Assembly: GCA_913042205.1 (NCBI GenBank)
Contig: CAJWIY010000022.1
Location: forward strand, 1-32,197
DNA from: an uncultured Gammaproteobacteria bacterium
GTDB taxonomy: Bacteria > Pseudomonadota > Gammaproteobacteria > Pseudomonadales > Litorivicinaceae
Direction of reading: 5' to 3'
DNA: 32,197 nucleotides
A program made the translations under genes and the position numbers. The notes beneath the pieces were generated by a model. That model saw only the letters and a list, made by a program, of their open reading frames with translations, was not told the DNA's origin and made no database searches. Positions 2,907 to 30,617 of the stretch are shown one piece after another (positions within the stretch are counted from its first letter, which is position 1; each line of letters opens with the position of its first letter).

Positions 2907-2972
2907 TTAAACGACCTTGGTGATATTTGTCGCGCTAGATTGATGGTGGTAATAGGTGCACGGGAAAAGTTT

Positions 2973-7370: not shown

Positions 7371-7415
7371 GAATGAATCGCCGCTTTTCGAAGTCCTCCC
7401 TTTGTGCGGTGTTTT

Positions 7416-10661: not shown

Positions 10662-10666
10662 TTGAA

Positions 10667-13555: not shown

Positions 13556-15274
13556 TTAGGGAACCAGCCAAGCTGGAAGCTCGTGCGCTGCGAAACCCGA
13601 AATCGCCGCGTCCACACAATCCCTCAATGACCCCAATCTAGAGTGCCTGTTACTTAAACCGTGGGCGTAGTGGGCATATTTACCAGAATTGGTCATTAGA
13701 CCTTTTGCCTCAGGCGGGAATATGGGCTCAATGATTGAGCACCAACAGAGGTCGGGCATAAGTTGTACCCCTGCGTCTTCCAATTTCTTAGTAATCCCCT
13801 CAGCCTCTGCGCGTTGAATCGTGTGACGGCCAGCAGTAATTTTCATTTGGGTCTGGATGTGACGTCGTCTACCAGCAAAGAGAGCGCTTATCTTCCTTAT
13901 TTCCTCAATCGAAGCGTGCGGGCTTCCAACAGCGACCAAATCAATTTTTTCGAGTCCACGATTAAGCTCAAGCCAAGCATCCTCGAGGTTCTCACGATTG
14001 ATCAGATGTATCGGATGTTGCTCACAATTCTGAGAAGATGATTCAGGTGTTTGGCCAAGAACGTGTAGCATTGGTGCACCGGAGGTTGTTCCAAAAGCAG
14101 CGCATAGAGATTTTAAATCATCGATTGTTGGTGACAAACTTTCGAGCCCTGTAATCAAGGGGACTGCGTCGGGTGACATTTTACCAGCAAGCCAACCAAT
14201 GAGTGGCCATAAGACCTCATCATCAGGTGTCCACTTTTGAGGAATCGCTACCTCGATTTTTACTCGGGCTTTTCTTCCAACTGTTGAATACATACCAACA
14301 GCTGGCGCCCGCCCCGTCATCGCGATGAATAGATCGAGATAGTCTGGATGTTTTTGTGTTCGGGCACCAAGAACGGTGTTCGCGAAAATCACTGCATTTG
14401 ATTCCGACCAACCTATATTTTCTCCGAGTTGAGGTTTGTCGGTCAGAAGATATGGGGCACAGGTAAAAGTCGGTTTGACCCCCATCTGAACATATGCATC
14501 GGCCAAACGGCTCGCCCGTTTACCAAAGTCCTTATCGAGCCCCGAGTTTTGCCAATTCTCACGATCGACCGAGATAGCATTAATCGTTGTCGGGATGATC
14601 ACTTGAGCACCAAGCTGAGCCATTTTTTCGGCAAAAATGAGATTGGCATCGTGTGCCAAGATACAGCCATCGATATGACCTTTGTCTACATTGATCAAAC
14701 TTGATGCGTTTTCGACGGCTGCCATTACGCAAATCGTTTCCATAGCAGCTTTGGCGACATTGCCATGATCACCCTCCAAATAGGCGTGATCGGTTTCAGA
14801 TAACACTAGTTTAGCTTTTGATATTAGGTCTAGGTCGATAGTTTGACTAGCCAGTACAAGCTTACGATCACGAAGTTCAACTGACTTTTCCCTCGCGACA
14901 GTATGGTAGTTTTGCTGAGACAGACAGATTATAGGAATCGGGACCCCAAAAATCCGATCGCACACGATTGATCCCAGGGTCAATACTTGCTCTGGCTCGT
15001 TGAAAATAATCATTGCTGGGGCACGCTTGTTGAGGGCCAACTGCAATAAGACACCGCTTCCACTGCATGAGCCTCTGGATGTCGGCATCAATAAGCATTT
15101 GCCGGATACAGAATCTCCGTGGTTGGGGTGATGTGTGTCGATGATTAGTCCAGTATTTGGGTCGACGCCTCCCCAGAAACTTAATCCTTCTCCACAGACT
15201 AGAACTTTGCCGTTGGCGCAACCCTCGACAATCAATTGATTTCTTTTGATCGAGCCGTCGTGTTTATGTTTCAT
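13556..15274 (-). CDS. aconitase X, fused small+large (probable cis-3-hydroxy-L-proline dehydratase)
   Basis: This 572-aa protein joins both aconitase-X parts in one chain. The swivel-type small domain (DUF126) spans about residues 12-140, with SRGSCSGSGVLLQLAL at 66-81. The large catalytic domain (DUF521) starts near 155, with LEGDHGNVAKAAMETI, TCAPYLL, GWSESNAVIFANTVLGARTQ, TGRAPAVGMYSTVGRKARV and LMTNSGKYAHYAHG. Fused type I AcnX enzymes use an Fe-S cluster to dehydrate cis-3-hydroxy-L-proline to pyrroline-2-carboxylate. The reductase for that product is encoded at 21843-22778, which supports this reading over a mevalonate-type role. It lies 40 bp after the GntR remnant. No clear Shine-Dalgarno precedes the ATG. 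Confidence 0.88.
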   Translation of the reverse strand: MKHKHDGSIKRNQLIVEGCANGKVLVCGEGLSFWGGVDPNTGLIIDTHHPNHGDSVSGKCLLMPTSRGSCSGSGVLLQLALNKRAPAMIIFNEPEQVLTLGSIVCDRIFGVPIPIICLSQQNYHTVAREKSVELRDRKLVLASQTIDLDLISKAKLVLSETDHAYLEGDHGNVAKAAMETICVMAAVENASSLINVDKGHIDGCILAHDANLIFAEKMAQLGAQVIIPTTINAISVDRENWQNSGLDKDFGKRASRLADAYVQMGVKPTFTCAPYLLTDKPQLGENIGWSESNAVIFANTVLGARTQKHPDYLDLFIAMTGRAPAVGMYSTVGRKARVKIEVAIPQKWTPDDEVLWPLIGWLAGKMSPDAVPLITGLESLSPTIDDLKSLCAAFGTTSGAPMLHVLGQTPESSSQNCEQHPIHLINRENLEDAWLELNRGLEKIDLVAVGSPHASIEEIRKISALFAGRRRHIQTQMKITAGRHTIQRAEAEGITKKLEDAGVQLMPDLCWCSIIEPIFPPEAKGLMTNSGKYAHYAHGLSNRHSRLGSLRDCVDAAISGFAAHELPAWLVP

Positions 15275-15314
15275 GGATGTCGAGCTTTGTATGAAAAGTT
15301 CCTTGTAACGTCAA

Positions 15315-15590
15315 TCAGTAGGGTAGTGTGGGGAATGAGGCTAAAAGCGATTCCTTAGCTCCTAAGATATGATCTCTCAGTAGTTCAGCTGCCAAATCTG
15401 CGTAATTTGAGAGGCAGGCATCAAGGATCGCTAAATGCTCACTTTTCGCTTTATCCATACCATCGCTTAAGACCTGACGTAACGGCATCCCCACTGTGAT
15501 ATCACCCTCGATAATTGCTTTCCGAAGAGCTGAAAAAATTATTTCGGATGCGGATTTGGTTTGTGAAATGTCGACGAACTTAACCTTCAA
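15315..15590 (-). pseudogene. GntR/FCD-family regulator remnant with internal deletion
   Basis: The 91-codon frame joins two ends of a GntR/FCD regulator, normally about 220 aa. Residues 8-39 (ISQTKSASEIIFSALRKAIIEGD... to MPLRQ) match the first helices of the GntR winged helix. Residues 48-87 (AKSEHLAILDACL...AAELLRDHILGAKESLLASFP) match the last helices of an FCD domain. The recognition helix, wing and most of the ligand domain are absent, yet the frame stays open across the join near 15450-15476. It starts at TTG 15590, 6 nt after GGTGA. A DNA-binding role is unlikely, though a short truncated protein could still be made. Its position between acnX and the ABC importer suggests a former hydroxyproline-cluster regulator. 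Confidence 0.75.
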
Positions 15591-15609
15591 AATTTCACCG
15601 ATTCACTCG

Positions 15610-15626
15610 TTGTACATTCGATACAA
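15610..15626. promoter_or_regulatory. GntR/FCD-like operator, TTGTA-N7-TACAA
   Basis: A perfect 5-bp inverted repeat with a 7-bp spacer lies in the 93-bp divergent region between the gntR remnant (start 15590) and the ABC binding-protein gene (start 15684). TTGTA/TACAA half-sites are common in FCD-type GntR operators. No intact GntR gene is present in this window to bind it, so any active regulator must be encoded elsewhere. Confidence 0.45.
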
Positions 15627-15683
15627 TATGCGATAAATTCGATGCCGGCAATAAAGCTTAGAACAACCATAGCGGGTACAAAG

Positions 15684-16484
15684 ATGATAAAAAAACTAGT
15701 TAGCATGGCGGCAATAACAATGATGATTGCCGGGACCTCAATGGCTGATACGTTGGACGATGTAATTGATCGCGGTAAGTTAAGATGCGGAGTCGTTCTG
15801 GACTTCCCTCCAATCGGATTCAGAGACTCAAACAATCAGCCGGCAGGCTTTGACGTCGAATACTGCAAGGACATGGCGGCTGCTTTAGAGGTCGAGCTTG
15901 AGCTTCTTGAACTGACATGGGCCGATCGTTTACCCGTAATCGTGACTGGTCGTGCAGATGTTGTTTTTGGCGCAACCTCGGACAGTTTAGCCCGCGCTAA
16001 GACTGTGGGATTCTCCATTCCCTACGCTATTTATTATGCTCAAGGTATTGTCAACTCAAAGAGCGGCATCAAAACCTTTGAGGACATAAAGGGCAAGCGT
16101 GTCGCTGCTGCCGTAGGCACCGTCCCAGAGCAGGAGTGGTTAAAAATTGCGAAGGAGTGGGGCGAGGAAAATTTATATCAGGGGTACCAGAGCGAGAACG
16201 AAGTTTTCCTCGCGGTCGCGCAAGGCAAGGCCGATATTGGGATAACCACCAACACAGCTGTAAAACCGATTTCAGAACAGTATGATACGGTTGATCCGGG
16301 TCCCCGCATGCCATGGACCACAGACTACACTTCGGTGGTCGGTAAACGGCAAGACGTTAGCTGGCTAAATTACTTGAATCTATTTGTTACTCAACAAGTG
16401 CGCTCTGGTCGTTACCAAGAGCTTTGGGGCCGGTTTGTAGGCGGTGAGGCTCCTGAGCTGAGAATTCCCGGCGTGATGTACTAG
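15684..16484 (+). CDS. amino-acid ABC transporter substrate-binding protein (probable hydroxyproline)
   Basis: This periplasmic binding protein belongs to the polar amino-acid family (SBP_bac_3). A signal peptide MIKKLVSMAAITMMIAGTSMA precedes the mature start DTLDD. The domain shows RGKLRCGVVLDFPPIGFRDSNN, GFDVEYCKDMAAAL, TWADRLPVIVTGRADVVFGA (a standard ligand-site region) and GKRVAAAVGTVPEQ. It heads a four-gene importer followed directly by HypD and hydroxyproline epimerase genes, so hydroxyproline is the likely ligand, comparable to the HypMNPQ importer of Sinorhizobium. ATG 15684 gives the best signal sequence; an ATG at 15642 lies further up in the divergent region. A strong hairpin follows the stop. 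Confidence 0.88.
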   Translation: MIKKLVSMAAITMMIAGTSMADTLDDVIDRGKLRCGVVLDFPPIGFRDSNNQPAGFDVEYCKDMAAALEVELELLELTWADRLPVIVTGRADVVFGATSDSLARAKTVGFSIPYAIYYAQGIVNSKSGIKTFEDIKGKRVAAAVGTVPEQEWLKIAKEWGEENLYQGYQSENEVFLAVAQGKADIGITTNTAVKPISEQYDTVDPGPRMPWTTDYTSVVGKRQDVSWLNYLNLFVTQQVRSGRYQELWGRFVGGEAPELRIPGVMY

Positions 16485-16497
16485 TTGACCGAAAAAT

Positions 16498-16528
16498 GAG
16501 GGGCCGTGCCCCTAGTAGACGGCCCCTC
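16498..16528 (+). terminator. intercistronic stem-loop after the binding-protein gene
   Basis: GAGGGGCCGT (16498-16507) and ACGGCCCCTC (16519-16528) form a perfect 10-bp stem with an 11-nt loop, 12 bp before the permease ATG. No T-run follows, so it is more likely an mRNA 3'-end stabiliser or partial terminator that raises binding-protein levels over permease levels than a full stop. Confidence 0.7.
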
Positions 16529-16539
16529 TCAATAATTGG

Positions 16540-17202
16540 ATGTTTGAGTACAACTTTCACTGGCGGCCTGTTTTTAGGAGCCTGCCGGATCTTCTTGAGG
16601 CGGCCCTAACTACTTTACAGGTCGCTTCCTTGGCTATGACTGTGGGTGTTTTGCTAGGATTCATCTTAGCAGTGGGCCGGATGCGGGAAACTGGAGTGAT
16701 CTATTGGTTCGCTACCACCTGGGTTGAGCTAGCTAGAAACACACCCGCTCTTTTTCAGTTATTCTTTTTTGGTTTTGGGCTAGGAGCGCTTGGGCTTCAT
16801 TTATCGCCTTACTTGATCGTTTTGGCGGGCTTGACCTTCAATACGGCTGGTTACTTGGCAGAGAATTTTCGCGGTGGTTTTGAGGCAATTCCATCTACTC
16901 AATTGAGAGCTGCGCGGAGCCTTGGGATGAACCCTTTGCAGGCCTACACGCGGATATTGATTCCCCAAGTCATGCGGATTGTCTATTACCCGATGACTAA
17001 CCAATTTGTTTGGGTTGTTTTAATGTCCTCCCTAGGAATGTTGGTTGGATACAGAGAGCTCACGGGAGAAACGCAATTTTTTGCGAGTAAGACATACAGG
17101 ATTTTTGAATATTTTGCTGTCACGGCGGTCATTTATTACGTGATGGTTAAAGTGATCCTGGTCCTTTCCAAAGTCTTTGCATCTCGATTTTTTAGGTATT
17201 AG
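16540..17202 (+). CDS. amino-acid ABC transporter permease (HisM/GlnP type)
   Basis: A 220-aa inner-membrane permease of the polar amino-acid family with about five membrane segments. The family start SLPDLLEAALTTLQVASLAM, the motif ELARNTPALFQLFFFGFGLG and the EAA loop NFRGGFEAIPSTQLRAARSLGM are all present. It follows the binding-protein gene after the hairpin at 16498-16528 and is 8 bp upstream of a second permease of the same type, which would form the heterodimeric channel. ATG 16540 has no clear Shine-Dalgarno, which fits lower expression than the binding protein. Confidence 0.9.
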   Translation: MFEYNFHWRPVFRSLPDLLEAALTTLQVASLAMTVGVLLGFILAVGRMRETGVIYWFATTWVELARNTPALFQLFFFGFGLGALGLHLSPYLIVLAGLTFNTAGYLAENFRGGFEAIPSTQLRAARSLGMNPLQAYTRILIPQVMRIVYYPMTNQFVWVVLMSSLGMLVGYRELTGETQFFASKTYRIFEYFAVTAVIYYVMVKVILVLSKVFASRFFRY

Positions 17203-17210
17203 GAATTTCA

Positions 17211-17873
17211 ATGGAGCAAACAGTAACTGTTTTTAGCGGCTTCAGTGCTCAAGACCTATTGTTCCTTGGGGAAGCGGCTCTTAGAACCCTTTGGATTTCT
17301 TTGCTGTCAATCGCCATTGGTTCACTCCTTGGCGGTATTTTTGGGTGGATACTTTACGAAACCAAGTATTGGGGTGGAATTCTTGTAAATCCCCTCTTGG
17401 ATATGTTTCGTTCTGTTCCGTTAATAGTTCAGCTAGTTCTTTTCTATAATTTCGCGCCAATTGTCGGCCTCAACCTAGACGCATTCGAGTCTGGGCTGGT
17501 TGTGCTGACCATGTACACCGCCGCTTTAGTGGCCAACGTAGCGCGCGGTGGCATTGAGTCGGTGGGCAGATCGATGCGTATCGCTTCTCGGTCTCTAGGA
17601 ATGTCATATTGGCAAGATATGCGTTACGTGGTGTTTCCAATTGGTACCCGTGCGATTTTCCCTTCCTGGGTTGGGGTCGCACTGGGCGTTATGAAGGACA
17701 GCGCACTCGTTTCGGTCTTGGGATATGTTGAGCTTGTGAAGGCGAGCCAGGTGCTGATCACGCGTACTCAGGAGCCTCTTCTCATCATCCTAGTGGTCGG
17801 CGCGTTCTATTTTGTCCTCTCTTATCCGGTGTCGCGATATTCAGCGAAGCTTGAGCGCAGGTGGTCGCAATGA
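17211..17873 (+). CDS. amino-acid ABC transporter permease (HisQ/GlnP type)
   Basis: The second 220-aa permease of the importer. It shows [25 protein letters not shown], the [17 protein letters not shown] segment (equivalent of RxTPxLxQL), the EAA loop [23 protein letters not shown] and the family end [21 protein letters not shown]. It presumably pairs with the preceding permease. Its TGA overlaps the ATG of the ATPase gene (ATGA at 17870-17873), showing translational coupling. Confidence 0.9.
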
Positions 17874-18592
17874 TCAAGGTCAATGGGTTACACAAATATT
17901 TTGATGATCTCCACGTTCTCCGCGGAATTGATCTAGAGGTACAGAAGGGGGAGGTCCTCTCGGTGATCGGTGCATCTGGATCAGGAAAGTCAACATTGCT
18001 TTACTGCATCAACGGGATCGAGCAGATTCAGGAAGGCTCGGTCTATGTCGATGATGTTGATGTGCATTCAAAGGCGACTGACTTGAACAAGCTTCGACAG
18101 CGGTTAGGGATGGTATTTCAGCAGTGGAATAGTTTCCCCCACTTGACTGCTCTGGAGAATGTGGCCCTCGCCCCTCAGATTGTTAGAGGGCTGACGAAGG
18201 CAGAAGCTAAGGATATCGCTATCAAACAACTCGAGCATGTTGGGCTTGGTGATAAGTTTGATGTCTATCCCAACGCCCTTTCTGGTGGCCAACAACAACG
18301 ATTGGCAATCGCGCGAGCTTTGGCTATGGACCCTCAGTACATGTTGTTCGATGAAGCCACATCAGCTCTGGATCCTGAGTTAGTCGGTGAGGTTTTGGAT
18401 ACGATGCGGGTGCTAGCTGAAGAGGGGATGACCATGATTTGTGTAACCCACGAAATGGGATTCGCTCGAGATGTATCCGACCGAGTCGCCTATTTTCATG
18501 AGGGCGTTGTGGAAGAAATTGGGTCACCGGATCAAATATTCGTAGACCCAGAGTCCGAGCATACGAAAAAATTTTTAGCAAAAGTAAGGTGA
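17870..18592 (+). CDS. amino-acid ABC transporter ATP-binding protein
   Basis: A 240-aa ATPase of the GlnQ/HisP family that completes the importer. It has Walker [11 protein letters not shown]-loop [20 protein letters not shown], signature [17 protein letters not shown], Walker [22 protein letters not shown]-loop [15 protein letters not shown] and the family ending [20 protein letters not shown] 17870 is taken because it forms the ATGA junction with the permease stop; a GTG at 17861 is less likely. A 59-bp gap with a small hairpin (TCTAT...ATAGA near 18609-18624) separates it from the HypD gene, so import and catabolism are probably co-transcribed. Confidence 0.93.
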
Positions 18593-18651
18593 TTTAGAGA
18601 GGTCAATTTCTATTTCGAGATAGACACGAGACCGCTTGTAGAGAGGTTCAG

Positions 18652-19602
18652 ATGATGAAAACAAGCATATTCACTGGTTGCGTTCCAGCTTTAATGACCC
18701 CATGCGATGAGCATCGAAAACCCAACTACGACGCGCTTGTCGAAAGGGGTTTGTATCTTATCGAGCAAGGAATGTCTGCCGTGGTCTATTGCGGATCCAT
18801 GGGCGATTGGCCCCTGCTGACCGATTCTCAGCGGATGGAGGGTGTGAGCGCGTTAGTAGAGGCAGGCGTACCTGTAATCGTGGGTACAGGGGCCATTAAC
18901 TCGGAGTCAGCTGTTGCTCATGCGGCGCATGCACAGAGGGTTGGTGCGCAGGGTTTAATGGTAATCCCCAGGGTGTTGTCCAGAGGTAACTCGCTAGAGG
19001 CCCAGCGATACCATTTTAAGGCAATCTTGGAGGCTGCCACTGATTTACCTGCGGTCATCTATAACAGTCCTTACTACGGTTTTACTACTCGAGCCGACCT
19101 GTTTTTTGCCCTGAGATCAGAGCATCCAAATCTGGTTGGGTTTAAGGAATTTGGTGGATTTGGGGACTTACGGTACGCGTCGGAACACATCACCTCTAAG
19201 GACCCGGACGTTACTTTGATGATTGGCGTAGATACGGCGGTATACCATGGTTTCGTCAACTGCGGTGCAGGGGGGGCAATTACTGGGATCGGAAACGTTT
19301 TGCCCAAGGAGGTCCTCCTTCTGGCTGAGTTGTCTCAGAAAGCGGCCGCGGGAGACGCGATTGCTCGCCGGAGAGCGCGAGAACTTGATGAGGCCATGTC
19401 TGTGCTCTCGAGTTTTGATGAGGGCGTGGATTTAGTGCTTTATTACAAGCATCTTATGGTTTTGGAGGGAGATGAGAATTACTTGCACCACTTTAATAGG
19501 TCCGACCGTTTGACAGATGCTCAGAGAAATTATGCTGAGTCACAGTTTTATGTGTTTAAGCAGTGGTTCGAGTCCTGGACCCAGCTTGAGAGTCTCCAGT
19601 GA
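18652..19602 (+). CDS. lhpC: DHDPS-family 1-pyrroline-4-hydroxy-2-carboxylate deaminase (HypD/LhpC)
   Basis: This class I aldolase-fold enzyme converts pyrroline-4-hydroxy-2-carboxylate to alpha-ketoglutarate semialdehyde plus ammonia, the third step of 4-hydroxyproline breakdown. The 316-aa TIM barrel has the Schiff-base lysine in LVGFKEFGG (Lys165) and the catalytic tyrosine in VIYNSPYYGF (Tyr137). VVYCGSMGDWPLLT near 44-57 replaces the GTTGE loop of true dihydrodipicolinate synthases. YYGFTTRADLFFALRSEHPNL is a strong subfamily match. Two consecutive ATGs (18652, 18655) follow AGAGAGG. Its TGA overlaps the GTG start of the epimerase gene by 4 bp. Confidence 0.9.
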   Translation: MMKTSIFTGCVPALMTPCDEHRKPNYDALVERGLYLIEQGMSAVVYCGSMGDWPLLTDSQRMEGVSALVEAGVPVIVGTGAINSESAVAHAAHAQRVGAQGLMVIPRVLSRGNSLEAQRYHFKAILEAATDLPAVIYNSPYYGFTTRADLFFALRSEHPNLVGFKEFGGFGDLRYASEHITSKDPDVTLMIGVDTAVYHGFVNCGAGGAITGIGNVLPKEVLLLAELSQKAAAGDAIARRRARELDEAMSVLSSFDEGVDLVLYYKHLMVLEGDENYLHHFNRSDRLTDAQRNYAESQFYVFKQWFESWTQLESLQ

Positions 19603-20525
19603 AAATTCTCGATAGCCACACTGAGGGTGAGCCCACTCGAGCTATTTTCGAGGCCGGTTTCGATTTGGGATCCGGCTCTCTGGCTGAAAAAGCAGTGGTA
19701 TTTGAACAAAATTATCGAGATTTTTGTGGCTCCGTTCTGAAAGAACCTAGAGGGAACGATGCCTACGTGGGCGCCTTGGTGATAGATTCCGAGGAATCTG
19801 ATTGCGCTGCCGGGGTCATTTTTTTTAATACCGTCAAAAATTTGGGAATGTGTGGGCACGGCACGATAGGATTAGGCGCAACGATGGCCTACATGGGTCT
19901 GATAAAGCCTGGCCAACATAGGCTTGAAACACCGGTAGGCAAAGTGGCAATCAATCTCAAAACTCCAAACCGAGTATCGGTCACCAATATTGAGAGCTAT
20001 AGGCTACTGAAGAATGTTCGCGTTGAAGTCTCGTCTCACGGGTCGTTAACTGGCGACGTGGCGTGGGGTGGAAATTGGTTTTTTCTTGTGAAGAATTCAC
20101 CGATCGATATCAGGTTGGAAAACTTGCGTGAGCTCACAGATTTGAGCTTACAAATACGTAAGGCACTGGAAGCTGAAGGTATTACGGGCTTGCAAGGAGC
20201 GTGGATAGATCACATAGAACTGTATGGGGCGCCGGAGTCTGCCGAGGCAAATAGTAGAAGCTTCGTTTTGGTACCCAGCGGTTCTTATGACCGATCTCCA
20301 TGTGGGACAGGTTGTTCGGCGAAGATGGCCTGTTTAGCGGCGGATGAGGCTTGGCCAGCTGGGAAGACCTGGATTCAGGAAAGCGTTATTGGGAGTACCT
20401 ATGCGTTGGCATACGAGCAGGGGGGCAACGGGGGCGTGATTGTTACCATCGAGGGTACGGCCTTTGTCACGGCTGAGATCACATTGATTTTCGATAGCCA
20501 AGACCCGTTCAGGTTTGGGATTTAG
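19599..20525 (+). CDS. 4-hydroxyproline 2-epimerase (proline racemase family)
   Basis: This enzyme interconverts trans-4-hydroxy-L-proline and cis-4-hydroxy-D-proline, the first catabolic step. Both catalytic cysteines are present: Cys85 in MCGHGTIGLG and Cys235 in DRSPCGTGCSAKMA, the Cys/Cys pair expected for a two-base epimerase. The N-terminus MKILDSHTEGEPTR and the DFCGSVLKEPRG segment are typical. At 308 aa it is of family length. The GTG start is inside the stop of the deaminase gene (GTGA), so the two are coupled. The D-hydroxyproline dehydrogenase gene follows after 54 bp. Confidence 0.92.
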   Translation: MKILDSHTEGEPTRAIFEAGFDLGSGSLAEKAVVFEQNYRDFCGSVLKEPRGNDAYVGALVIDSEESDCAAGVIFFNTVKNLGMCGHGTIGLGATMAYMGLIKPGQHRLETPVGKVAINLKTPNRVSVTNIESYRLLKNVRVEVSSHGSLTGDVAWGGNWFFLVKNSPIDIRLENLRELTDLSLQIRKALEAEGITGLQGAWIDHIELYGAPESAEANSRSFVLVPSGSYDRSPCGTGCSAKMACLAADEAWPAGKTWIQESVIGSTYALAYEQGGNGGVIVTIEGTAFVTAEITLIFDSQDPFRFGI

Positions 20526-20579
20526 TCGTGAAAATCTGTCGTTACCTAATGCGACAGAACTTGGGTGTCGGCTTAATCT

Positions 20580-21830: not shown

Positions 21831-21842
21831 TTTTATCCAAGG

Positions 21843-22778: not shown

Positions 22779-22781
22779 GAT

Positions 22782-23792
22782 TTAGATTGGGCGAACCGGC
22801 CAAGTGTCGGATACCCTATATCCGTGTGGCCAAGGGTCGGATGGGTCTAAATAATATTCATACGAGCCCGTGATCCACGCACGTCCAGAAATCTCAGGTC
22901 TGATCATAGGGATACCGCTGTGCCTCTCCGTTCCCAGAATTTTACCCTCGAAACATGATCCTATTATTGATCGGGCGATAACAGGCTCTCCGATGGACAG
23001 CTGTTTTCTAGCATGTAGGACGGCCATCCGCGCTGACAGACCTGTGCCAGTAGGTGATCGATCAAGCTTTCCTGGGTCTATCACAACCGTATTTGTGTAT
23101 GTTTTTATGCCGTCAATTTTTGTAAGGCTAGAGTGTATTTGTGTAAACGAAAAGTGCGTCCAGTCCTTGTTAATCGGGTGCCTAAATTCCAGTTGCTCGT
23201 TAGCCGCTTTGGTAATTTTTCTGCCGAGCGCAACGAGATCCTTTGCCTCGTCTGGAATGATTTGAATCTCTAGCTGTTCCGCGTCAATCGTTACGAAGCT
23301 ATCCCCACCATATGCGGTGTCTACTGAGAGTGTCCCAAGACCCTCGAGCTCAAGCCTTTGGTCTAGCAAGCCGGCGAATGACGGTACGTTTTCCACGCAG
23401 ACCCGCTCAACCTTCCCGAGGCCACATTTCGCTCTGACTTTTATAAGCCCCCCGGGGGCCTCTAAAGTCATAAAAGTTTCGGGTTCCACCATCGGAATAA
23501 TACCGGTCTCTAGCAGAACGGTAGCGACACAGATCGAGTTCGAGCCCGACATAGGCGGTGTGTGACTTGGTTCCATAATGATCCAGCCCATCTGAGCCTC
23601 GGGCCGCTTAGGTGGCACCAGTAGATTGACGTGTCGAAACAGACCACCACGGGGTTCATTGAGTATGAAGTTTCTTAGCGAGCCGTCATTGTGTATATAA
23701 ACCGCTTGCTCCCAGATCGTATCGCCCGGCGGCGGCGCAACGCCTCCGACAATGACATCACCGACCTCTCCCTCTGCGTGACAACCGATCAC
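22782..23792 (-). CDS. trans-3-hydroxy-L-proline dehydratase (proline racemase family, Ser/Thr active site)
   Basis: This proline-racemase homologue probably dehydrates trans-3-hydroxy-L-proline to pyrroline-2-carboxylate for the reductase 3 bp downstream. It keeps the fold ([34 protein letters not shown]) but the catalytic pair is altered: Ser82 ([11 protein letters not shown]) replaces the first Cys and Thr248 ([14 protein letters not shown]) the second. Thr at the second site is the known mark of dehydratases rather than epimerases. The coordinate given starts at GTG 23792, which has no ribosome site. An in-frame ATT at 23816, 9 nt after AGGGAG, would add eight residues (RSSKSIHV before IGCH) and may be the true start. 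The gene is divergent from the aldehyde dehydrogenase gene. Confidence 0.87.
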
Positions 23793-23957
23793 ATGTATAG
23801 ACTTCGAGGATCTAATTTTTTTACGCTCCCTTTTTTCCTACCAAGCTATACTATTTTTATCGAGGCTTGATCCCTCTAACGTACTACAAGACCCGCAGAG
23901 CGAAAAGGTGAGCCCTCCACAATTTGCTGGCCAATATTAATTTCGAAGGAGTATTCG

Positions 23958-25472
23958 ATGAAATATCAACTGAAGCTGAAGCACTTTATTGCTGGTAACT
24001 GGGTTGGGGGCTCTGATAGCTTTGAATCTTCTCCTAGCTCAGGTCGAGGTCATAGTTTCCCGGTAGGTACAAACGAATTGGTAGATCAGGCGGTTAGAGC
24101 TGCCGAGGAGGCGTTTATCACTTATTCGGAAACTCCTCGGCAGGATCGTGCCAATTTTTTAAAGGCGATAGCTGAAGAAATCGATGCTCTTGGTGATGCG
24201 ATTACAGCGATCGCAGGCGAAGAGACTGGTTTACCCTCGTTAAGATTGGAAGGTGAGCGAGGCAGGACCTGCGGCCAATTGAGAATGTTTTCTGATGTCT
24301 TGGAAAAGGGTGATTATTTAGATTGTCGGCACGATAAGGCCTTGCCTGACCGGACACCGTTACCGCGTCCTGAATTACGACTCATGCAGCTACCTGTGGG
24401 GCCCGTCGCCGTGTTCGGAGCATCTAATTTTCCGCTTGCCTTTTCTACTGCAGGGGGCGATACAGCGTCGGCCTTGGCCGCTGGTTGTCCAGTCGTTGTC
24501 AAGGCGCACCAAGCGCATCCAGGAACAAGTGATCTTGTTGCGCAGGCGATTGAGAGCGCCATACATCGCACTGGGATGCCAAGAGGAGTGTTTTCGATGG
24601 TCCATGGTGGGAGCAGATCAGTGGGCGAGGCCCTCGTGAAGCATCCACTAATTTCTGCTGTTGGATTTACCGGGAGCCTTGTGGGTGGCCGAGCACTGTT
24701 TGACCTCTGCACCCAGCGTCCAACTCCCATCCCGTTCTTTGGTGAACTCGGGTCAGTCAATCCTATGTTTATATTACCAGGAGCGGCGGCAGAGCGGGGC
24801 GAGGAGATCGGTCGGGGTTGGGCCGCGTCCCTTTCAATGGGTGCCGGTCAGTTTTGTACCAATCCCGGGATTATTGTTGTGATGGAAGGCGAAACAGCTG
24901 ACAAACTTATTGATGCAGCTAAAGTCGCGTTAGCTGGCGCTGCTCCTCAAACGATGCTGACTGATGGCATAGCTGTTGCGTATCAAGAGGGGCAAAAACG
25001 GATATCGCACACACCGGGTGTGCGTAGTGTCCTCACCTCAGTGTGTGATCAACGACAGGCAACGCCATACCTATATGAAACAGATGGGTCGACTTGGTTA
25101 GCAGATAGGTCACTTGGTCATGAGGTTTTTGGTCCTTTGGGTCTCATTGTTAAAGTGTCGGATTTTGAGCAGATGCTAGAGGTGGCGAAACATCTGGATG
25201 GACAGCTGACATGCACATTACACACAACAGACGATGACCTTGAATATGGGTGTGCACTGATGCCAATTTTGACTCGCAAGGCTGGGCGTGTTTTGGCGAA
25301 TGCTTATCCGACTGGTGTGGAAGTTTGTGACGCAATGGTCCACGGTGGGCCGTATCCTGCGAGCACAAACTTTGGTGCAACATCGGTGGGCAGTATGGCT
25401 ATCCTCCGATTTTTGAGGCCGGTCTGTTTTCAGGATATACCAGTAAGGCTGCTCCCTGTTGACATTTCCTAG
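23958..25472 (+). CDS. alpha-ketoglutarate semialdehyde dehydrogenase
   Basis: This NAD(P)-dependent aldehyde dehydrogenase oxidises 2,5-dioxopentanoate to alpha-ketoglutarate, the last step of 4-hydroxyproline degradation. Catalytic residues are visible: Asn157 (FGASNFPLAFST), Lys182 (VVVKAHQAHPGT), Glu263 (FFGELGSVNPMFILP) and Cys300 (SMGAGQFCTNPG). GFTGSLVGGRALFDLC and HQAHPGTSD are typical of the KGSADH subfamily. AAGGAG 7 nt before the ATG is the best ribosome site in this block. At 504 aa it is full length. Although divergent from the 3-hydroxyproline genes, it serves the 4-hydroxyproline route encoded at 18652-21830. Confidence 0.93.
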   Translation: MKYQLKLKHFIAGNWVGGSDSFESSPSSGRGHSFPVGTNELVDQAVRAAEEAFITYSETPRQDRANFLKAIAEEIDALGDAITAIAGEETGLPSLRLEGERGRTCGQLRMFSDVLEKGDYLDCRHDKALPDRTPLPRPELRLMQLPVGPVAVFGASNFPLAFSTAGGDTASALAAGCPVVVKAHQAHPGTSDLVAQAIESAIHRTGMPRGVFSMVHGGSRSVGEALVKHPLISAVGFTGSLVGGRALFDLCTQRPTPIPFFGELGSVNPMFILPGAAAERGEEIGRGWAASLSMGAGQFCTNPGIIVVMEGETADKLIDAAKVALAGAAPQTMLTDGIAVAYQEGQKRISHTPGVRSVLTSVCDQRQATPYLYETDGSTWLADRSLGHEVFGPLGLIVKVSDFEQMLEVAKHLDGQLTCTLHTTDDDLEYGCALMPILTRKAGRVLANAYPTGVEVCDAMVHGGPYPASTNFGATSVGSMAILRFLRPVCFQDIPVRLLPVDIS

Positions 25473-25630
25473 TAAAGATTTTGCTTGGGCGATCTCGGTC
25501 GGTTCGCACGTATTGAATGACCTGGCTCTAATTTTTTAATAAAGGTACGGGCCGAGACATGACTCAGAAAGCGTTGAGAAAGACTTATAAGAGCAAACAG
25601 GGGTGTAAAACGATAACGTCGAAAAAGAAT

Positions 25631-26941
25631 TCAAATATCCATTATCGACGGCAGATACAAGGACAGTTCAGGGAACGAGATGATCACCAATAGCGCTACT
25701 ATATCCATTACTATAAACCAACCCACTCCCTTGAAGATTGTTTGAAGCGGAACGCTATTACCGACCGCGCCTTTGATGACATAGACGTTCAAGCCGACTG
25801 GGGGCGAGACTAAGCCTATCTCAAGTAGCTTAATCAGGATTATGCCGAACCAAATGAGGTTCATATCAGCTCCGTTCGCTATCGGTAGAAGTAGTGGCAG
25901 TGTTAAAAGAAGAAGTCCGATTGAATCCACAAACATTCCGAGAATAATGTATATGATAGCCACTGAGATTATGATCCAAACTGCGCTGTCGCTTACACTA
26001 AGCATGGTGCTGGCTAGCCAAGCGGGTAATCCACTTAGCGCTAGGAATTTTGTGAGAAAAATCGTTCCGATGAGGATTATAAAGATACTGCCAGTCCCGC
26101 GTGCGGTTGCGGTCAGTGCTTCAATAAAATTTGTCCGAGAAAACTTTCCTCGAAAGACCGCCAGAATAGTCGCGAGGAAGGCACCAACAGCACCGGCCTC
26201 CGTCGGTGTGAAAAAGCCAGCAAAGATTCCCCCCAGCACAAAAATGATTAAGGTTGGTAGTGCCCATACTTCTTTAATTGCTTCCCACTTTTCTTGACTC
26301 GTGAAATGTTGCTCTACTTTCCCGGCCAGGTCAGGTGTCAGCTTTACACGAGCTACTATCATCAAAATATACAGGGCGGCAGATAAGAGTCCTGGCAAGA
26401 AACCGGCCATAAATAGTTTTCCAATTGAGACCTCAGCATAAACTCCGTAAAGGACCATCAAGATGCTTGGAGGGATCAATGATCCAAGGGTGCCGGATGC
26501 GGCGATGACTCCTGTCGCTAATCCGCGGTCATATTTGTGCCTTAACATTTCTGGTACTGCAATACGCGCCATTGCCGACGCGGTTGCGACACTCGAGCCC
26601 GAGGCTGCTGCAAACATTGAACATGCACCAACACTAGCAATAGCGAGTCCGCCTGGAAGACGCGACAAGCACACCCTCATGGCTTTGAAGAGTCCTTGAG
26701 TCATCCCAGAGGTAGTGCACACGTACCCCATTAACAGAAACATAGGGACGGCTGTAAATGACCAGTTTCCGATGAAATTGAATGGGACCGCAGTGATTAT
26801 TCCCAAAGCGGCACGCATGTTTGTCAGTTCCATAATGCCGAAGAATGAGACTAGACCCAGGGCCACCGCGATCGGCACGCGAAGCGCGATTAGGAGTAGT
26901 GCGACTAAAACGCCTATCGCCCCTAGGGTGATGCTACTCAA
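25631..26941 (-). CDS. dctM: TRAP transporter large permease (DctM)
   Basis: The 436-aa large membrane subunit of a tripartite ATP-independent transporter couples solute import to a sodium or proton gradient. It has about 12 hydrophobic segments and DctM signatures: NFIGNWSFTAVPMFLLMGYV, ASGSSVATASAMARIAVPEM, GTLGSLIPPSILMVLYGVYAEVSIGKLFMAGFLPG, GGIFAGFFTPTEAGAVGAFLA and GLVSPPVGLNVYVIKG. The start is TTG 26941, with AGAGGA 8 nt upstream, inside the last codons of dctQ (8-bp overlap). Its substrate is set by the DctP protein; the setting suggests hydroxyproline, proline or a related betaine. Confidence 0.93.
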   Translation of the reverse strand: MSSITLGAIGVLVALLLIALRVPIAVALGLVSFFGIMELTNMRAALGIITAVPFNFIGNWSFTAVPMFLLMGYVCTTSGMTQGLFKAMRVCLSRLPGGLAIASVGACSMFAAASGSSVATASAMARIAVPEMLRHKYDRGLATGVIAASGTLGSLIPPSILMVLYGVYAEVSIGKLFMAGFLPGLLSAALYILMIVARVKLTPDLAGKVEQHFTSQEKWEAIKEVWALPTLIIFVLGGIFAGFFTPTEAGAVGAFLATILAVFRGKFSRTNFIEALTATARGTGSIFIILIGTIFLTKFLALSGLPAWLASTMLSVSDSAVWIIISVAIIYIILGMFVDSIGLLLLTLPLLLPIANGADMNLIWFGIILIKLLEIGLVSPPVGLNVYVIKGAVGNSVPLQTIFKGVGWFIVMDIVALLVIISFPELSLYLPSIMDI

Positions 26942-27473
26942 CTAAATCGTCCTCTGGACTTGTCACTTGCGGGGAATGTGTTGACTTTTTATTTAACAAA
27001 TAAGTTGTCGATAGAATCAGCGCTAGTGCCATCGCGAGGAATCCGATTGGTAGTGCCCACCTGCTCGGCCAAACATAGAACAAGTAATTGGACATGATCG
27101 TTTCTTTGTAACCGAATGAAGCTATCGCATCGAGGAGTGTTTGATAGAACAATCCGCCGAAATAAACGATTCCTAGGAGGTTCGCAATGCAGAGAGTGAT
27201 CAACCTTAAGCGAGGTGAAAAAAACTGTATGAATAGGTCAACGTGAACGTGTTCCTTTTTCAACTCTACTGCCCCGAGAGGTAGAAAAACTGCCCCGACC
27301 ATGTAGTAATACGAGACAGTTTCAAGCGTCCCGATCAACGGTGCATTGAATGCAAACTTTAGAAAAACGTCTAAAACGACGTGCCCCATCATCAAGATAA
27401 GGCAGCAGAGGCTCACATTTAGCAAAAGATTGCTAAATTTTGTCACGGCAGTATCAAAAACTGTCTGAAGCAA
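26934..27473 (-). CDS. dctQ: TRAP transporter small permease (DctQ)
   Basis: The 179-aa small membrane subunit has four hydrophobic helices (LLLNVSLCCLILMMGHVVLD; YYYMVGAVFLPLGAVELK; LITLCIANLLGIVYFGGLFY; WALPIGFLAMALALILS). It carries the DctQ-type EHVHVDLF motif near residues 74-81. It starts at TTG 27473, with GAGGGG 8 nt upstream. It lies about 250 bp downstream of dctP, past a strong terminator-like hairpin, and overlaps dctM by 8 bp. Confidence 0.88.
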   Translation of the reverse strand: MLQTVFDTAVTKFSNLLLNVSLCCLILMMGHVVLDVFLKFAFNAPLIGTLETVSYYYMVGAVFLPLGAVELKKEHVHVDLFIQFFSPRLRLITLCIANLLGIVYFGGLFYQTLLDAIASFGYKETIMSNYLFYVWPSRWALPIGFLAMALALILSTTYLLNKKSTHSPQVTSPEDDLVE

Positions 27474-27693
27474 AGGTCTTACCCCTCAATGAGACTTGTC
27501 TTACAGCCTATCAAGCCTTTTCAACGTTAGCACTTTTAGACGACACAGACCAAGGACCGTCTGTCGCAAAGTAATGACTGGAAACAAGAGGTCTGGCTCC
27601 TCGGGGAAGTCAGACTCCTTTGTCTTTAACCAGCGACTGCTGAACTCACAGCGATTCTGGAGTGGTGTAAACGGTGTGTATTTGCCTGTTCAA

Positions 27694-27716
27694 AAAAAGG
27701 GGCCGAGCCCCTTTTT
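27694..27716 (-). terminator. intrinsic terminator/attenuator between dctP and dctQ
   Basis: AAAAAGGGGC and GCCCCTTTTT form a 10-bp stem around the loop CGA, with a run of seven T on the minus strand after the stem, 8 bp beyond the dctP stop. It has the form of a Rho-independent terminator. It would end most dctP transcripts and leave dctQM to read-through or to a promoter of their own in the 217-bp gap at 27474-27690. Confidence 0.85.
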
Positions 27717-27724
27717 AGTTACCG

Positions 27725-28864
27725 TTATAGTCCGTAGGAGCCCACATCTATCTTATCGAAGAGTTCTCTCTGGATTATTGCGGCGATAGCGTCTGCGTCG
27801 TTTCTATCCACCTTGGCAAAGAGGGCGTCCCACTTCTGCATAGTTGCGTCGAATCTGCTAAAAAGTGCTTTAGGGTCAGCAATTTTATATTTTTCGGAGG
27901 CCATGCTGTACACGTTAGTCATATTATCTGACGCAAATTGCTTGATTGACGACATCATGTCCGCTGAAGGCTCATAGACTGACACACCGTGACTTTTAGC
28001 TTCGTTTAAAGCTTCTGTTACAGACGCGTCATAGCCAACATATAGTCTCGCCATCGCTTTTGCGTTTTCGTTAAACATCAGGCGCTTGTGCTTGCTTGAC
28101 AATCCGGACCAGAAATCTTTGTTATAACCCCACATAGGGCCAGCCCAAGCCAGACCTAACGGGACCATAGTGGTGTGCTTTGCGACGTCCCAAAGACTTC
28201 TTGATTTAAGATCACTTGCCACGTTAAGTGCGCAATCTAGTGTTCCTTTTTCGAGGCCTTGGTACATTTCGCTTGAAGGAACATTTACTGGAACCGCGCC
28301 TACCGTCTCTGCCCATCTAGAGAGGGCATTTCCATTAGTCCGTAGACGTTTACCTTTAACTTCTGACAAGTTCCTTACAGGCATGCTACACATCAGATTA
28401 TATGCTGGAGTGGAATAGCCGCCACCAAAAATAATCCCAGCCTTTTCCCACTCCGCCAACAACTCTTTATCGTTCATATTAAAGTCGGTGTTGGCGACGG
28501 CCGCCACCAGTGCGTCACTGTAGTTAAAGCCGAGCTCTTGTATGGCGGTTGAGACTGGTAATTCTGCTGGCGTGTAGCCTGAATAGTGATATCCCACTTG
28601 CGCAATGCCGTCTTGTAAGCCCGACATTCCAGCTCTGGCTGGAAGTAGCACCGTTCCAGTGAAGACTTTGGGTTGTAACTCACCGTTTGAGCTCGCTTTT
28701 AACGACTCTGCCCAATCTACATAACCAAACTTGCCAAGTGGATGTGTGGCGGGAAAAAACGTATTCGCATTAAATTCAGTGGCCCCGACCGCAGCGGCCG
28801 AGAAAATACTGCTAGATAAGGCAGCTACACAGATACTCAACTTGAATTTGTGTTTTGTTATCAT
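27725..28864 (-). CDS. dctP: TRAP transporter substrate-binding protein (DctP)
   Basis: This 379-aa periplasmic solute receptor feeds the DctQM permease. A signal peptide (SICVAALSSSIFSAAAVGA) is followed by TEFNANTFFPATHPLGKFGY. DctP-family elements are GLQDGIAQVGYH, the ligand-anchoring arginine in GKRLRTNGNALSRWAE, PVNVPSSEMYQGLEKGTLDCALN and a long C-terminal helical part. AGGAG lies 9 nt before the ATG. Several TRAP receptors from hydroxyproline loci in other bacteria bind 4-hydroxyproline or proline betaine; a similar ligand here is inferred from location only. The gene is divergent from the prolidase-like gene. Confidence 0.9.
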   Translation of the reverse strand: MITKHKFKLSICVAALSSSIFSAAAVGATEFNANTFFPATHPLGKFGYVDWAESLKASSNGELQPKVFTGTVLLPARAGMSGLQDGIAQVGYHYSGYTPAELPVSTAIQELGFNYSDALVAAVANTDFNMNDKELLAEWEKAGIIFGGGYSTPAYNLMCSMPVRNLSEVKGKRLRTNGNALSRWAETVGAVPVNVPSSEMYQGLEKGTLDCALNVASDLKSRSLWDVAKHTTMVPLGLAWAGPMWGYNKDFWSGLSSKHKRLMFNENAKAMARLYVGYDASVTEALNEAKSHGVSVYEPSADMMSSIKQFASDNMTNVYSMASEKYKIADPKALFSRFDATMQKWDALFAKVDRNDADAIAAIIQRELFDKIDVGSYGL

Positions 28865-29073
28865 TTTTATTTCTCCTAGTCCTAACTATCTTAATTATTG
28901 ATTGAATTAGATCCTGAGCGTTAAAAAAACACTTGCCTCGATAGTGGCGATACGAAAGCGACCAGTCAAGCTTAGATTCGCTGCGATAAAGCGCCATATA
29001 GGTATGGGCGGTTTGCTGACTTTCTGGAAAACGCGGTAGGATGCCATGGCAATCGAAACCTTTTGGATCTGAC

Positions 29074-30300
29074 ATGACCGGGCTAGTGGTTTTAGCTAAC
29101 ACAAGAATCTTGGATGTAAGGAAGGGGATACTTACTGACACGCAAGATATTGTGATTGAGAGAGACCGCATTATCGATATCAACCGTAACGCTACCTTGA
29201 AAAACGATCATAGACGGATTGATCTCAAGGGGAAGATTTCACTACCTGGGCTATGCGACGCTCACGTGCATGTTACGGCCGCAACACCGAACTTCCCCGA
29301 ATTGATGCGTTGGTCTCCTTATTATACCGCCGCCCGCGCAAGCGAAATCTTGAGAAATATGCTGATGCGAGGCTTCACCACCGTGAGAGACGCTGGAGGC
29401 GCAGAGTTTGGTTTGGCTCGTGCGGTGGAAGAGGGATTTCTGACCGGACCAAGAATTCTGTTTTGCGGAAAAGCACTATCCCAGACTGGTGGGCATGGCG
29501 ATATGCGAGAGCCGGGAGAGAATTTTGAGTCGTGTCTTTGTTGTGCAGGGCTAGGACGAGTTTGTGATGGTGTGAGCGCGGTCAGAAATGCCTGTCGAGA
29601 TGAAATTCGGAAGGGGGCTAACCAGATCAAGATAATGGCATCCGGTGGAGTTGCGTCCCCTACGGATCGAATATCGAGTTCTCAATTTTCTCTGGAGGAA
29701 ATATCAGCGGCTGTAGAAGAGGCCACAAATGCCAATATCTATGTCATGGCGCACGCATACCTTCCAAGGTCGATTTCAAGAGCACTAGATTGCGGGGTGA
29801 GGTCCATCGAACATGGGAATATGATCGACCAACAGACCTGTAAGCTATTGATTGAAAAAGATGCTTTCCTTGTGCCAACTATGTCTACACACGAAGTTTT
29901 GCCGGTTATGGGCTTAGAGGCAGGCATGCCCGCCGATATGCTCGAAAAGGTCTCGTTCGTCACAGAGGAGGGTAAGAAAAACTTCCCAAATGCTTGGAAA
30001 CAAGGTGTTAAAATGGTGTTTGGGACCGATCTTTTAGGAACCATGCATGAGCATCAATTGCTGGAGTTTGAATTGCGTGGTGCTTTCCAAACGCCGATAG
30101 AAGTCATTCGGTCAGCGACGATAGTCGCGGCAGAATTATTCCAAATGTCTGAAGATTTGGGAGAGATCAAAGTCGGTGCTTTGGCGGACATCATATCTGT
30201 TGACGGCAACCCTCTGGATGACCTAGGTGTTTTACAGTCGCCTGATAGGTTCTTGAAACTTATCATGAAAGCCGGACAGATACATAAAGAGGACTGCTAA
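29074..30300 (+). CDS. amidohydrolase, prolidase-like (COG1228)
   Basis: This 408-aa metal-dependent amidohydrolase has a binuclear site: HxH at His64/His66 (LPGLCDAHVHV), probable carboxylated Lys186 (NQIKIMASGGVASP), His227 (VMAHAYLP), His247 (SIEHGNM) and Asp319 (FGTDLLG). SQTGGHGDMREP and the SGGVASPTD loop match COG1228 enzymes, some of which hydrolyse Xaa-Pro dipeptides or N-acyl-proline. Adjacent to a hydroxyproline island, release of proline or hydroxyproline from peptides is a reasonable inference, but imidazolonepropionase-like or other amide substrates cannot be excluded. ATG 29074 is chosen because family members begin just before LVLANTRILD; ATG 29041 is the alternative. Confidence 0.82.
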   Translation: MTGLVVLANTRILDVRKGILTDTQDIVIERDRIIDINRNATLKNDHRRIDLKGKISLPGLCDAHVHVTAATPNFPELMRWSPYYTAARASEILRNMLMRGFTTVRDAGGAEFGLARAVEEGFLTGPRILFCGKALSQTGGHGDMREPGENFESCLCCAGLGRVCDGVSAVRNACRDEIRKGANQIKIMASGGVASPTDRISSSQFSLEEISAAVEEATNANIYVMAHAYLPRSISRALDCGVRSIEHGNMIDQQTCKLLIEKDAFLVPTMSTHEVLPVMGLEAGMPADMLEKVSFVTEEGKKNFPNAWKQGVKMVFGTDLLGTMHEHQLLEFELRGAFQTPIEVIRSATIVAAELFQMSEDLGEIKVGALADIISVDGNPLDDLGVLQSPDRFLKLIMKAGQIHKEDC

Positions 30301-30540: not shown

Positions 30541-30617
30541 TGGCGCGCTCGGTAGGATTCGAACCTACGACCGCCTGGTTCGTAGCCAGGTACTCTATCC
30601 AGCTGAGCTACGAGCGC
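30541..30617 (-). tRNA. tRNA-Arg (anticodon ACG)
   Basis: On the minus strand the sequence folds as a standard cloverleaf. The acceptor GCGCTCG (30617-30611) pairs with CGAGCGC (30551-30545). The D arm contains GCTCAGCTGGATAGAGT. The anticodon stem CCTGG/CCAGG holds the loop CTACGAA, and the T arm is GTAGG-TTCGAAT-CCTAC. The discriminator is G and CCA is encoded at 30543-30541. ACG is modified to ICG by TadA and reads CGU, CGC and CGA. The D and anticodon arms resemble gammaproteobacterial tRNA-Arg(ACG), which helps place the organism. Confidence 0.97.

Follow-up and report, generated by a model that had tools for sequence, protein, structure and literature searches.

The window, which is the whole stretch of 32,197 nucleotides that was analysed, comes from a member of the OM252 clade of marine gammaproteobacteria, to which the isolate HIMB30 and its relatives belong. 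The following features were identified between positions 13556 and 30300:

13556..15274, minus strand: AcnX (cis-3-hydroxyproline dehydratase family), Pfam PF04412 and PF01989 (AcnX plus swivel domain); NF051439, 810 bits, cut-off 700
15321..15626, minus strand: pseudogene of a GntR/FCD-type regulator, with a 130-codon stretch missing and an early stop
15642..18592, plus strand: ABC importer of the polar amino-acid type by Pfam: SBP_bac_3 binding protein (15642-16484), two permeases and ATPase (17861-18592)
18652..19602, plus strand: DHDPS-family deaminase, predicted from family and context to convert Pyr4H2C to alpha-ketoglutarate semialdehyde
19599..20525, plus strand: 4-hydroxyproline 2-epimerase of the proline-racemase family with a Cys/Cys pair; NF052296, 443.8 bits, cut-off 450
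20580..21830, plus strand: FAD-dependent (DAO) dehydrogenase, PF01266; from context a probable cis-4-hydroxy-D-proline dehydrogenase
21843..22778, minus strand: ornithine-cyclodeaminase-family reductase, PF02423; probable pyrroline-2-carboxylate reductase
22782..23816, minus strand: trans-3-hydroxyproline dehydratase (T3DH) with a Ser/Thr pair, 344 aa, by NF047722 and comparison of starts
23958..25472, plus strand: aldehyde dehydrogenase, PF00171; from context a probable alpha-ketoglutaric semialdehyde dehydrogenase (KGSADH)
25631..28864, minus strand: complete TRAP transporter with DctM (25631-26941, PF06808), DctQ (26934-27473, PF04290) and DctP (27725-28864, PF03480)
29041..30300, plus strand: amidohydrolase-superfamily 'prolidase', divergent from dctP, with structure matches 3FEQ/3N2C and 3MKV

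The genes listed in an earlier note on this DNA are long open reading frames at or near the positions given there, and their assignment to routes for trans-4-, trans-3- and cis-3-hydroxyproline (Hyp) holds at the family level. The description of these as the three common isomers was an overstatement, as the authors of PMC5144071, in the excerpt available, state that the sole occurrence of cis-3-Hyp known to them was as a building block of telomycin. The amidohydrolase, the last gene of the range, was missing from the list of families in that note. In an Rfam scan tRNA-Arg was the sole match.

The enzymes for trans-4-Hyp are all present in the island: the 4-Hyp epimerase, which scores just under its cut-off and whose MCGHGT and SPCGTG motifs align to 4JUU, and the D-Hyp dehydrogenase, the deaminase and KGSADH, which were recognized by family and context. 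Residues 1-313 of the 316 of the deaminase align to 5CZJ, 4MPQ and 2HMC at 505-510 bits, and KGSADH matches 3V4C at 697 bits. No NCBIfam equivalog was passed by KGSADH, and the NCBIfam matches of the DAO dehydrogenase were below cut-off. The roles given for the dehydrogenase, the reductase, KGSADH and the deaminase are probable ones, assigned by family and context only. According to what is known of these families, trans-4-Hyp would be epimerised, oxidised, deaminated and again oxidised to alpha-ketoglutarate.

Both 3-Hyp dehydratases scored above their curated cut-offs, whereas the adjoining ornithine-cyclodeaminase-family reductase remained below its own (best NCBIfam match PRK06141, 257.6 bits, cut-off 322). 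AcnX aligned with the type I enzyme of Agrobacterium tumefaciens (7CNP) at 639 bits and was identical at Trp35, Ser70, Cys71, Asp203, Ile206, Cys273, Glu292, Ser293, Cys508, Cys510, Lys530 and Tyr534. Among the active-site residues named in the excerpt of PMC8184944 that describes this enzyme, the single exception was Thr72, which is Ser in the window. The single fused chain, the 2Fe-2S cysteines and the Glu, Lys and Tyr place the protein in type I; together with the Trp, Ser, Cys, Asp and Ile these are shared with 7CNP, and apart from the Thr72 exchange it is an ordinary member. T3DH carries the motifs SGSN and SPTGTG. From family knowledge, AcnX would convert cis-3-Hyp and T3DH trans-3-Hyp to pyrroline-2-carboxylate, which the ornithine-cyclodeaminase-family enzyme would reduce to L-proline.

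Such Hyp gene clusters are already known. The enzyme kinds for trans-4-, trans-3- and cis-3-Hyp are shared with the L-hydroxyproline (lhp) clusters of Pseudomonas aeruginosa, P. putida and Sinorhizobium meliloti, as far as these are described in the excerpts of PMC5144071 and PMC4113996; the ABC importer is likewise common to both, as is the local regulator in HIMB30 and SAT133. The order of the enzyme and ABC genes is conserved in SAT133, SP353, HIMB30 and NP1444. Among 53 full-length loci outside OM252, 22 had the ABC binding protein together with AcnX, T3DH and the 4-Hyp epimerase. The window differs from the known clusters in the attached TRAP transporter and amidohydrolase, the decayed regulator, a proline dehydrogenase that was not found and the ATT start of T3DH. 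Among the titles retrieved on hydroxyproline with TRAP and ABC transporters in marine bacteria, none concerned this system. Our main reading, to which we give a probability of roughly 0.72, is that the locus is a chromosomal lhp cluster of an OM252 bacterium to which a module for peptides or conjugates has been added, and in which T3DH is translated from AUU. The cluster itself is ordinary; the enzyme with the AUU start is the interesting part.

Of 80 T3DH loci, 49, including 4 from OM252, have a relative of the ABC binding protein (at least 30% identity and at least 60% coverage) next to the T3DH gene, and this importer is the probable entry route for free hydroxyproline, judging from its genomic context. 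The regulator next to it is intact in HIMB30, where it has GntR and FCD domains, and in SAT133. In a tblastn search with the SAT133 protein, residues 1-51 and 182-232 matched at 94% and the two matches abut in the window. Such a regulator is often present in lhp clusters but does not strictly define them. Since the local copy has decayed, control may be constitutive or located elsewhere. A palindrome, TTGTA-N7-TACAA, is located at the start of the regulator in the window, SAT133 and SP353 and is absent from the fetched stretches of HIMB30, NP1444 and G007; that it is an operator is a guess.

For the two importers, the earlier note had suggested parallel transporters that are split by isomer or affinity. 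This was weakened by the neighbourhoods of the TRAP genes, which behave as a separate module. All six outside relatives with a DctP identity of 44-50% have both the TRAP genes and the amidohydrolase, and in the 18-20 kb fetched for each, none of the Hyp-pathway enzymes had a match. Among more distant DctP relatives, at 27-36% identity, the fetched stretches of G582, G305 and G051 carried TRAP genes without an amidohydrolase match. DctP relatives were located at 2 of 80 T3DH loci, both from OM252, and at none of the 76 other loci, even at 25% identity. That both transporters import free hydroxyprolines, with all isomers serving as carbon sources, is consistent with the TRAP genes of this genome, SAT133 and SP353, which directly adjoin the island, with distant DctM relatives (31-35% identity) near T3DH in 8 of the 76 non-OM252 loci, and with genome-neighbourhood work in which some trans-3-Hyp dehydratases had peptidases and components of TRAP and ABC transporters nearby (PMC4113996, eLife 2014, in excerpt). 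Against the neighbourhood counts it is, however, unlikely. Because the TRAP genes move with the amidohydrolase and without Hyp enzymes, the TRAP transporter probably carries a peptide or conjugate that ends in proline, such as N-acyl-proline, and not free hydroxyproline.

The amidohydrolase matched 3FEQ/3N2C at 387 bits and 3MKV at 332 bits, and the likeness spans nearly the full length. These structures we take to be Sgx9260b and Sgx9260c, of the prolidase type. The window protein differs from them in its pairing with a TRAP transporter, and it reached 289 bits against the curated prolidase model NF051886 (cog1228 prolidase), below the cut-off of 500. The nearest solved binding protein to DctP was 4N6D, at 72 bits only. 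From the linkage of their genes, the TRAP transporter may import, and the divergent amidohydrolase cleave, dipeptides that end in proline or hydroxyproline, or N-acyl derivatives of these, which gives this uncharacterised importer a class of ligands that can be tested.

The use of all isomers as carbon sources is also opposed by a proline dehydrogenase (PF01619) not being found in this 98%-complete genome. Among 22 genomes of the genus, a single one has it; proC is present, and in HIMB30 putA adjoins AcnX. Of the earlier proposal that the cell can use every isomer, the routes stood at the family level, but the 3-Hyp branch would end in the proline pool, so that 3-Hyp would supply proline and not carbon, which alters what these cells are expected to do with 3-hydroxyproline. 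The translation factor gene infC was not found here either. Of the other 21 members of the genus, 14 have it (one as a fragment), so its absence is likely an assembly gap; the proline dehydrogenase, too, could have been missed in this metagenome-assembled genome.

T3DH had been placed at 22782-23792 in the earlier note. Its membership of the Ser/Thr T3DH family stood, and its start was revised to an ATT at 23816, 8 codons upstream of the GTG used there; against NF047722 (cut-off 550) the longer frame scored 569.8 bits and the version that begins at the GTG 555.5 bits. This position is ATT or ATC in 6 of 6 OM252 copies, and ATG, GTG or TTG in 82 of 82 others. A sequencing error is ruled out, as six assemblies, including that of an isolate, all show ATT or ATC at this codon. 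In all six copies an in-frame stop precedes the ATT/ATC by 0 to 7 codons, which makes an upstream in-frame start impossible. No ATG occurs in the 141-nt leader of the window or in that of SP353, which contains N bases; the ATGs in the leaders of SAT133 (1), HIMB30 (3) and NP1444 (3) are all out of reach. The ATT/ATC start with a Shine-Dalgarno sequence is conserved in 6 of 6 OM252 copies; GGAG lies at Shine-Dalgarno distance, and an RSS-K/R-S motif is conserved. Translation of T3DH thus appears to begin at the very rare codon AUU.

To our knowledge, AUU starts occur in very few bacterial genes. In E. coli two are reported, infC and pcnB (PMC9410913, in excerpt), and this near absence would suit a T3DH that has lost its start codon and survives as an unused or decaying remnant, or that starts at the GTG. 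The adjacent regulator has indeed decayed, and since the GTG lies 8 codons past the ATT in the window lineage, a second or alternative start is possible in this genome. Only HIMB30 and NP1444 are without this GTG, however, and in HIMB30 the next ATG, GTG or TTG is 38 codons past its position. The frame is open in all six OM252 copies, and pN/pS was 0.13-0.16 in four comparisons, within or slightly under the range of the six other island genes, which indicates purifying selection. In addition, when the first codons of NP1444 and the window are compared, 4 of the 5 changes fall at third positions, and the RSS-K/R-S motif and the GGAG are retained. A lost start is therefore improbable.

Starts of this kind were also observed in OM252 infC, which reads ATC-AGA or ATT-AGA, with ATC in 9 and ATT in 3 of the 12 copies read. 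In an ortholog-pair start scan, in which parts of HIMB30 and the own genome were compared with 800 kb of G001, infC (IF3) was the only gene among 281 pairs with a conserved ATT/ATC/ATA start and a Shine-Dalgarno core of at least 4 bases. With a 3-base core, 40 candidates of many codon types were obtained in 283 pairs, so that background dominates; 4 of these were ATT/ATC/ATA, infC among them. The comparison of nine close-relative stretches with the window (52 pairs) yielded 12 candidates with various codon types (10 for T3DH and 2 upstream of AcnX) and is of limited use, as conservation at such distance extends to non-coding DNA. That OM252 widely tolerates AUU/AUC starts and T3DH is nothing special, as the infC starts would allow, is very improbable, since infC stood alone in the 4-base scan and, read by eye, seems to start with ATT/ATC in other families of the order too. 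IF3 missing from the clade, so that AUU is allowed, is ruled out by the infC genes of the other genus members.

With its AUU start behind a Shine-Dalgarno sequence, T3DH would by comparison have a weak start like that of infC. It shares the AUU/AUC start behind a Shine-Dalgarno core with E. coli infC and pcnB, as described in the excerpt of PMC9410913, and differs from them in that it is a metabolic enzyme and in that its control by IF3 is putative. We tentatively suggest, as a reading that is itself rather doubtful, that T3DH of OM252 is under an infC-like, IF3-sensitive translational brake, by which the supply of L-proline from 3-Hyp would follow the state of the translation machinery. If true, in members without proline dehydrogenase a scavenging route would be coupled directly to the needs of protein synthesis. 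An AUU/AUC-started enzyme in six of six copies, one from a cultured isolate, offers a natural test of start-codon discrimination by IF3, and proteins with such starts may be shortened by gene callers.

The gene inventory of the hydroxyproline (Hyp) island at 13556-30300, described in the earlier note as holding enzymes for three Hyp isomers and two importers, was borne out by family and profile matches:

13556-15274 (-), AcnX, the cis-3-Hyp dehydratase
15642-18592, ABC importer, complete
19599-20525, 4-Hyp epimerase with a Cys/Cys pair; 443.8 bits against a cut-off of 450
21843-22778, reductase of the ornithine cyclodeaminase (OCD) family
22782-23816 (-), T3DH, the trans-3-Hyp dehydratase; Ser/Thr pair seen in the alignment to 4K8L; 555.5 bits (model cut-off 550) in the earlier frame, 22782-23792, and 569.8 bits in the longer one
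23958-25472, aldehyde dehydrogenase (KGSADH)
25631-28864 (-), TRAP set DctM, DctQ and DctP, complete
29041-30300 (+), amidohydrolase of the 'prolidase' type, a family not named in the earlier note

The DHDPS-family deaminase matched 5CZJ, 4MPQ and 2HMC with 505-510 bits. Three enzymes have roles assigned solely from family and context, having reached no equivalog cut-off: the dehydrogenase, the reductase of the OCD family and the aldehyde dehydrogenase.

PMC5144071 describes gene clusters of this sort, handling trans-4-, trans-3- and cis-3-Hyp and frequently including ABC transporters and regulators. Outside the OM252 clade 76 T3DH loci were compared, 53 of them full length (20.9 kb or more), with neighbouring genes matched at thresholds of 38% identity and 60% coverage. 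AcnX and the 4-Hyp epimerase lay beside T3DH in 24 of the 76, always with an ABC binding protein (24/24), and all four occurred together in 22 of the 53 full-length loci. The three-isomer design is already known, and the island is of a known kind. Matches to the deaminase or KGSADH were found in just 13 of the 24 loci and a relative of the reductase near T3DH in 6/76, indicating that the remaining pathway steps elsewhere differ in kind or place.

The window takes up contig 22 in full; the genome is 2.02 Mb in size and 98% complete. T3DH was found in 6 of the 22 genomes of the genus, with identities to the window copy of 95% in SAT133, 88% in SP353 and 81% in NP1444 (all MAGs), and 82% in the isolate HIMB30. 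HIMB30 is placed in OM252 by PMC8269220, and neither 'hydroxyproline' nor 'TRAP' occurs in the main text of that paper. In the window (9659-13133), genes for a Fur-family regulator, an FtsX permease and a zrgA-like protein flank the island towards AcnX; in HIMB30 (locus L102, 3095-6620) this group is found towards KGSADH and farther away, so that the island surroundings have been rearranged. Purine-breakdown genes adjoin the island (2940-8750), with a guanine deaminase above cut-off at 7404-8750 and, at 2940-6675, what we take from motifs to be xanthine dehydrogenase subunits. A tRNA-Arg (acg) is located at 30541-30617, shortly past the island end.

The start of T3DH had been placed at a GTG. 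When the position of the Met in MRSSKVIH of other T3DHs was used as the aligned start, a different codon was obtained, ATT at 23814-23816 (-). At this position the 76 non-OM252 loci carry ATG (68), GTG (7) or TTG (1), and six further genomes from a second search all carry ATG, giving a canonical codon in 82/82. All six OM252 copies deviate, with ATT in the window, SAT133, SP353, the relative G007 and HIMB30, and ATC in NP1444. A GGAG core was found at Shine-Dalgarno distance in every pair compared, and in 6/6 copies the reading frame is closed by a stop codon 0 to 7 codons upstream of the ATT/ATC. The GTG is missing from HIMB30 and NP1444; in HIMB30 the next ATG, GTG or TTG follows 38 codons past its place. 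Five changes separate NP1444 from the window in the first codons, four of them at third positions. The pN/pS of T3DH was 0.13-0.16 in four comparisons, within or slightly under the range of six other island genes, with synonymous sites near saturation for HIMB30 and NP1444. An AUU/AUC start of T3DH is well supported as a prediction from sequence comparison.

In OM252, infC starts with ATC-AGA (9) or ATT-AGA (3) in the 12 copies read, preceded by GGAGA or GGAGAA. A start scan covered 281 ortholog pairs, with parts of HIMB30 and parts of the window's genome set against 800 kb of the compared genome G001. It gave three raw candidates, and the single one with ATT, ATC or ATA was infC. T3DH has no ortholog in the G001 comparison; it passed the same scan when HIMB30 was paired with NP1444 and when the window was paired with its relatives. 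With a 3-base core, 283 pairs gave 40 candidates of many codon types, so that this setting cannot separate signal from noise. For E. coli, infC and pcnB are named as the only two AUU-start genes in PMC9410913, and among the titles and abstract openings found in searches on AUU starts none concerned a hydroxyproline enzyme. It might be guessed that T3DH is under IF3 control.

Both importers had been assigned to Hyp; for the TRAP set, genome neighbourhoods weaken this. A DctP relative was seen at 2 of 80 T3DH loci, both from OM252; among the 76 from outside the clade, a threshold of 25% identity yielded none. TRAP genes were absent from the fetched stretch of the HIMB30 island, the NP1444 contig stops ∼1.4 kb past KGSADH, and the amidohydrolase was found in 3/22 genus genomes. 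Outside the genus, two overlapping samples were searched, 369 genomes from Gammaproteobacteria and 398 from across the phylum, and DctP at 44-50% identity was identified in six (G402, G239, G769, G464, G685 and G634). In all six the TRAP genes are accompanied by an amidohydrolase that shares 43-57% identity with 29041-30300, and in none did the window enzymes as queries match a Hyp-pathway enzyme in the 18-20 kb fetched; the sole other matches were ABC ATPases (two) and a second, distant DctM (one). Among solved structures, the amidohydrolase is closest to 3FEQ/3N2C, which carry the name prolidase, and to 3MKV, which PMC11342369 lists as a Gly/Ala/N-acyl-Pro dipeptidase originating from the Sargasso Sea. 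In the simplest reading, TRAP set and amidohydrolase form one module, separate from the Hyp island proper, whose ligands we infer to be proline-ended dipeptides or N-acyl-proline, and perhaps their hydroxyproline forms too.

Against a peptide module stand eight of the 76 non-OM252 loci, where a DctM relative (31-35% identity) lies close to T3DH. The permease there belongs to a different TRAP system near Hyp genes, and other TRAP systems may thus serve hydroxyproline. These loci (L011, L013, L014, L016, L019, L031, L036 and L056) are from Pseudomonas or Stutzerimonas (seven) and Microvirga (one). Also against it, TRAP and ABC components and peptidases are reported near trans-3-Hyp dehydratases of Bacilli in an eLife 2014 paper (PMC4113996), and more distant DctP relatives (<36%) have TRAP genes with no amidohydrolase match in the three genomes examined (G582, G305 and G051). 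Two contigs, G194:C37 and G305:C78 (L110, L111, L113-L116), carry three tandem DctP-type binding proteins, each ∼28-31% identical to the window DctP.

A proline dehydrogenase domain was not found in the window's genome and was identified in only one of the 22 genus genomes, HIMB30 (G008), where putA (1139 aa; L103, 5139-8558) follows ∼80 bases after AcnX. In the window, SAT133 and SP353 the zrgA-like gene comes next after AcnX instead, and PutA was not seen in the 1.3 kb following AcnX in NP1444. Since four of the five island-bearing genomes lacking the domain are incomplete (56-88%), its absence rests mainly on the window's genome, in which proC is present. Probably the 3-Hyp branch ends in proline; unless an assembly gap is the cause, both 3-Hyp isomers, trans and cis, would drain into the proline pool, and trans-4-Hyp alone into the TCA cycle.

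HIMB30 and SAT133 encode an intact 233-aa regulator in the interval from AcnX to the ABC genes; the HIMB30 protein has GntR and FCD domains, and the SAT133 protein is 79% identical to it. The window retains a remnant (15321-15626) of residues 1-51 and 182-232 alone, abutting, with an early stop. Frame changes or stops were observed in SP353, less surely as its assembly has N bases, and in G007, whose copy also ends at the contig edge; the NP1444 copy is shortened and diverged. The regulator has thus decayed in four of the six OM252 loci, by differing routes. At the old gene start the window carries a palindrome, TTGTA-N7-TACAA (15610-15626), also present in SAT133 and SP353, which is a possible candidate operator.
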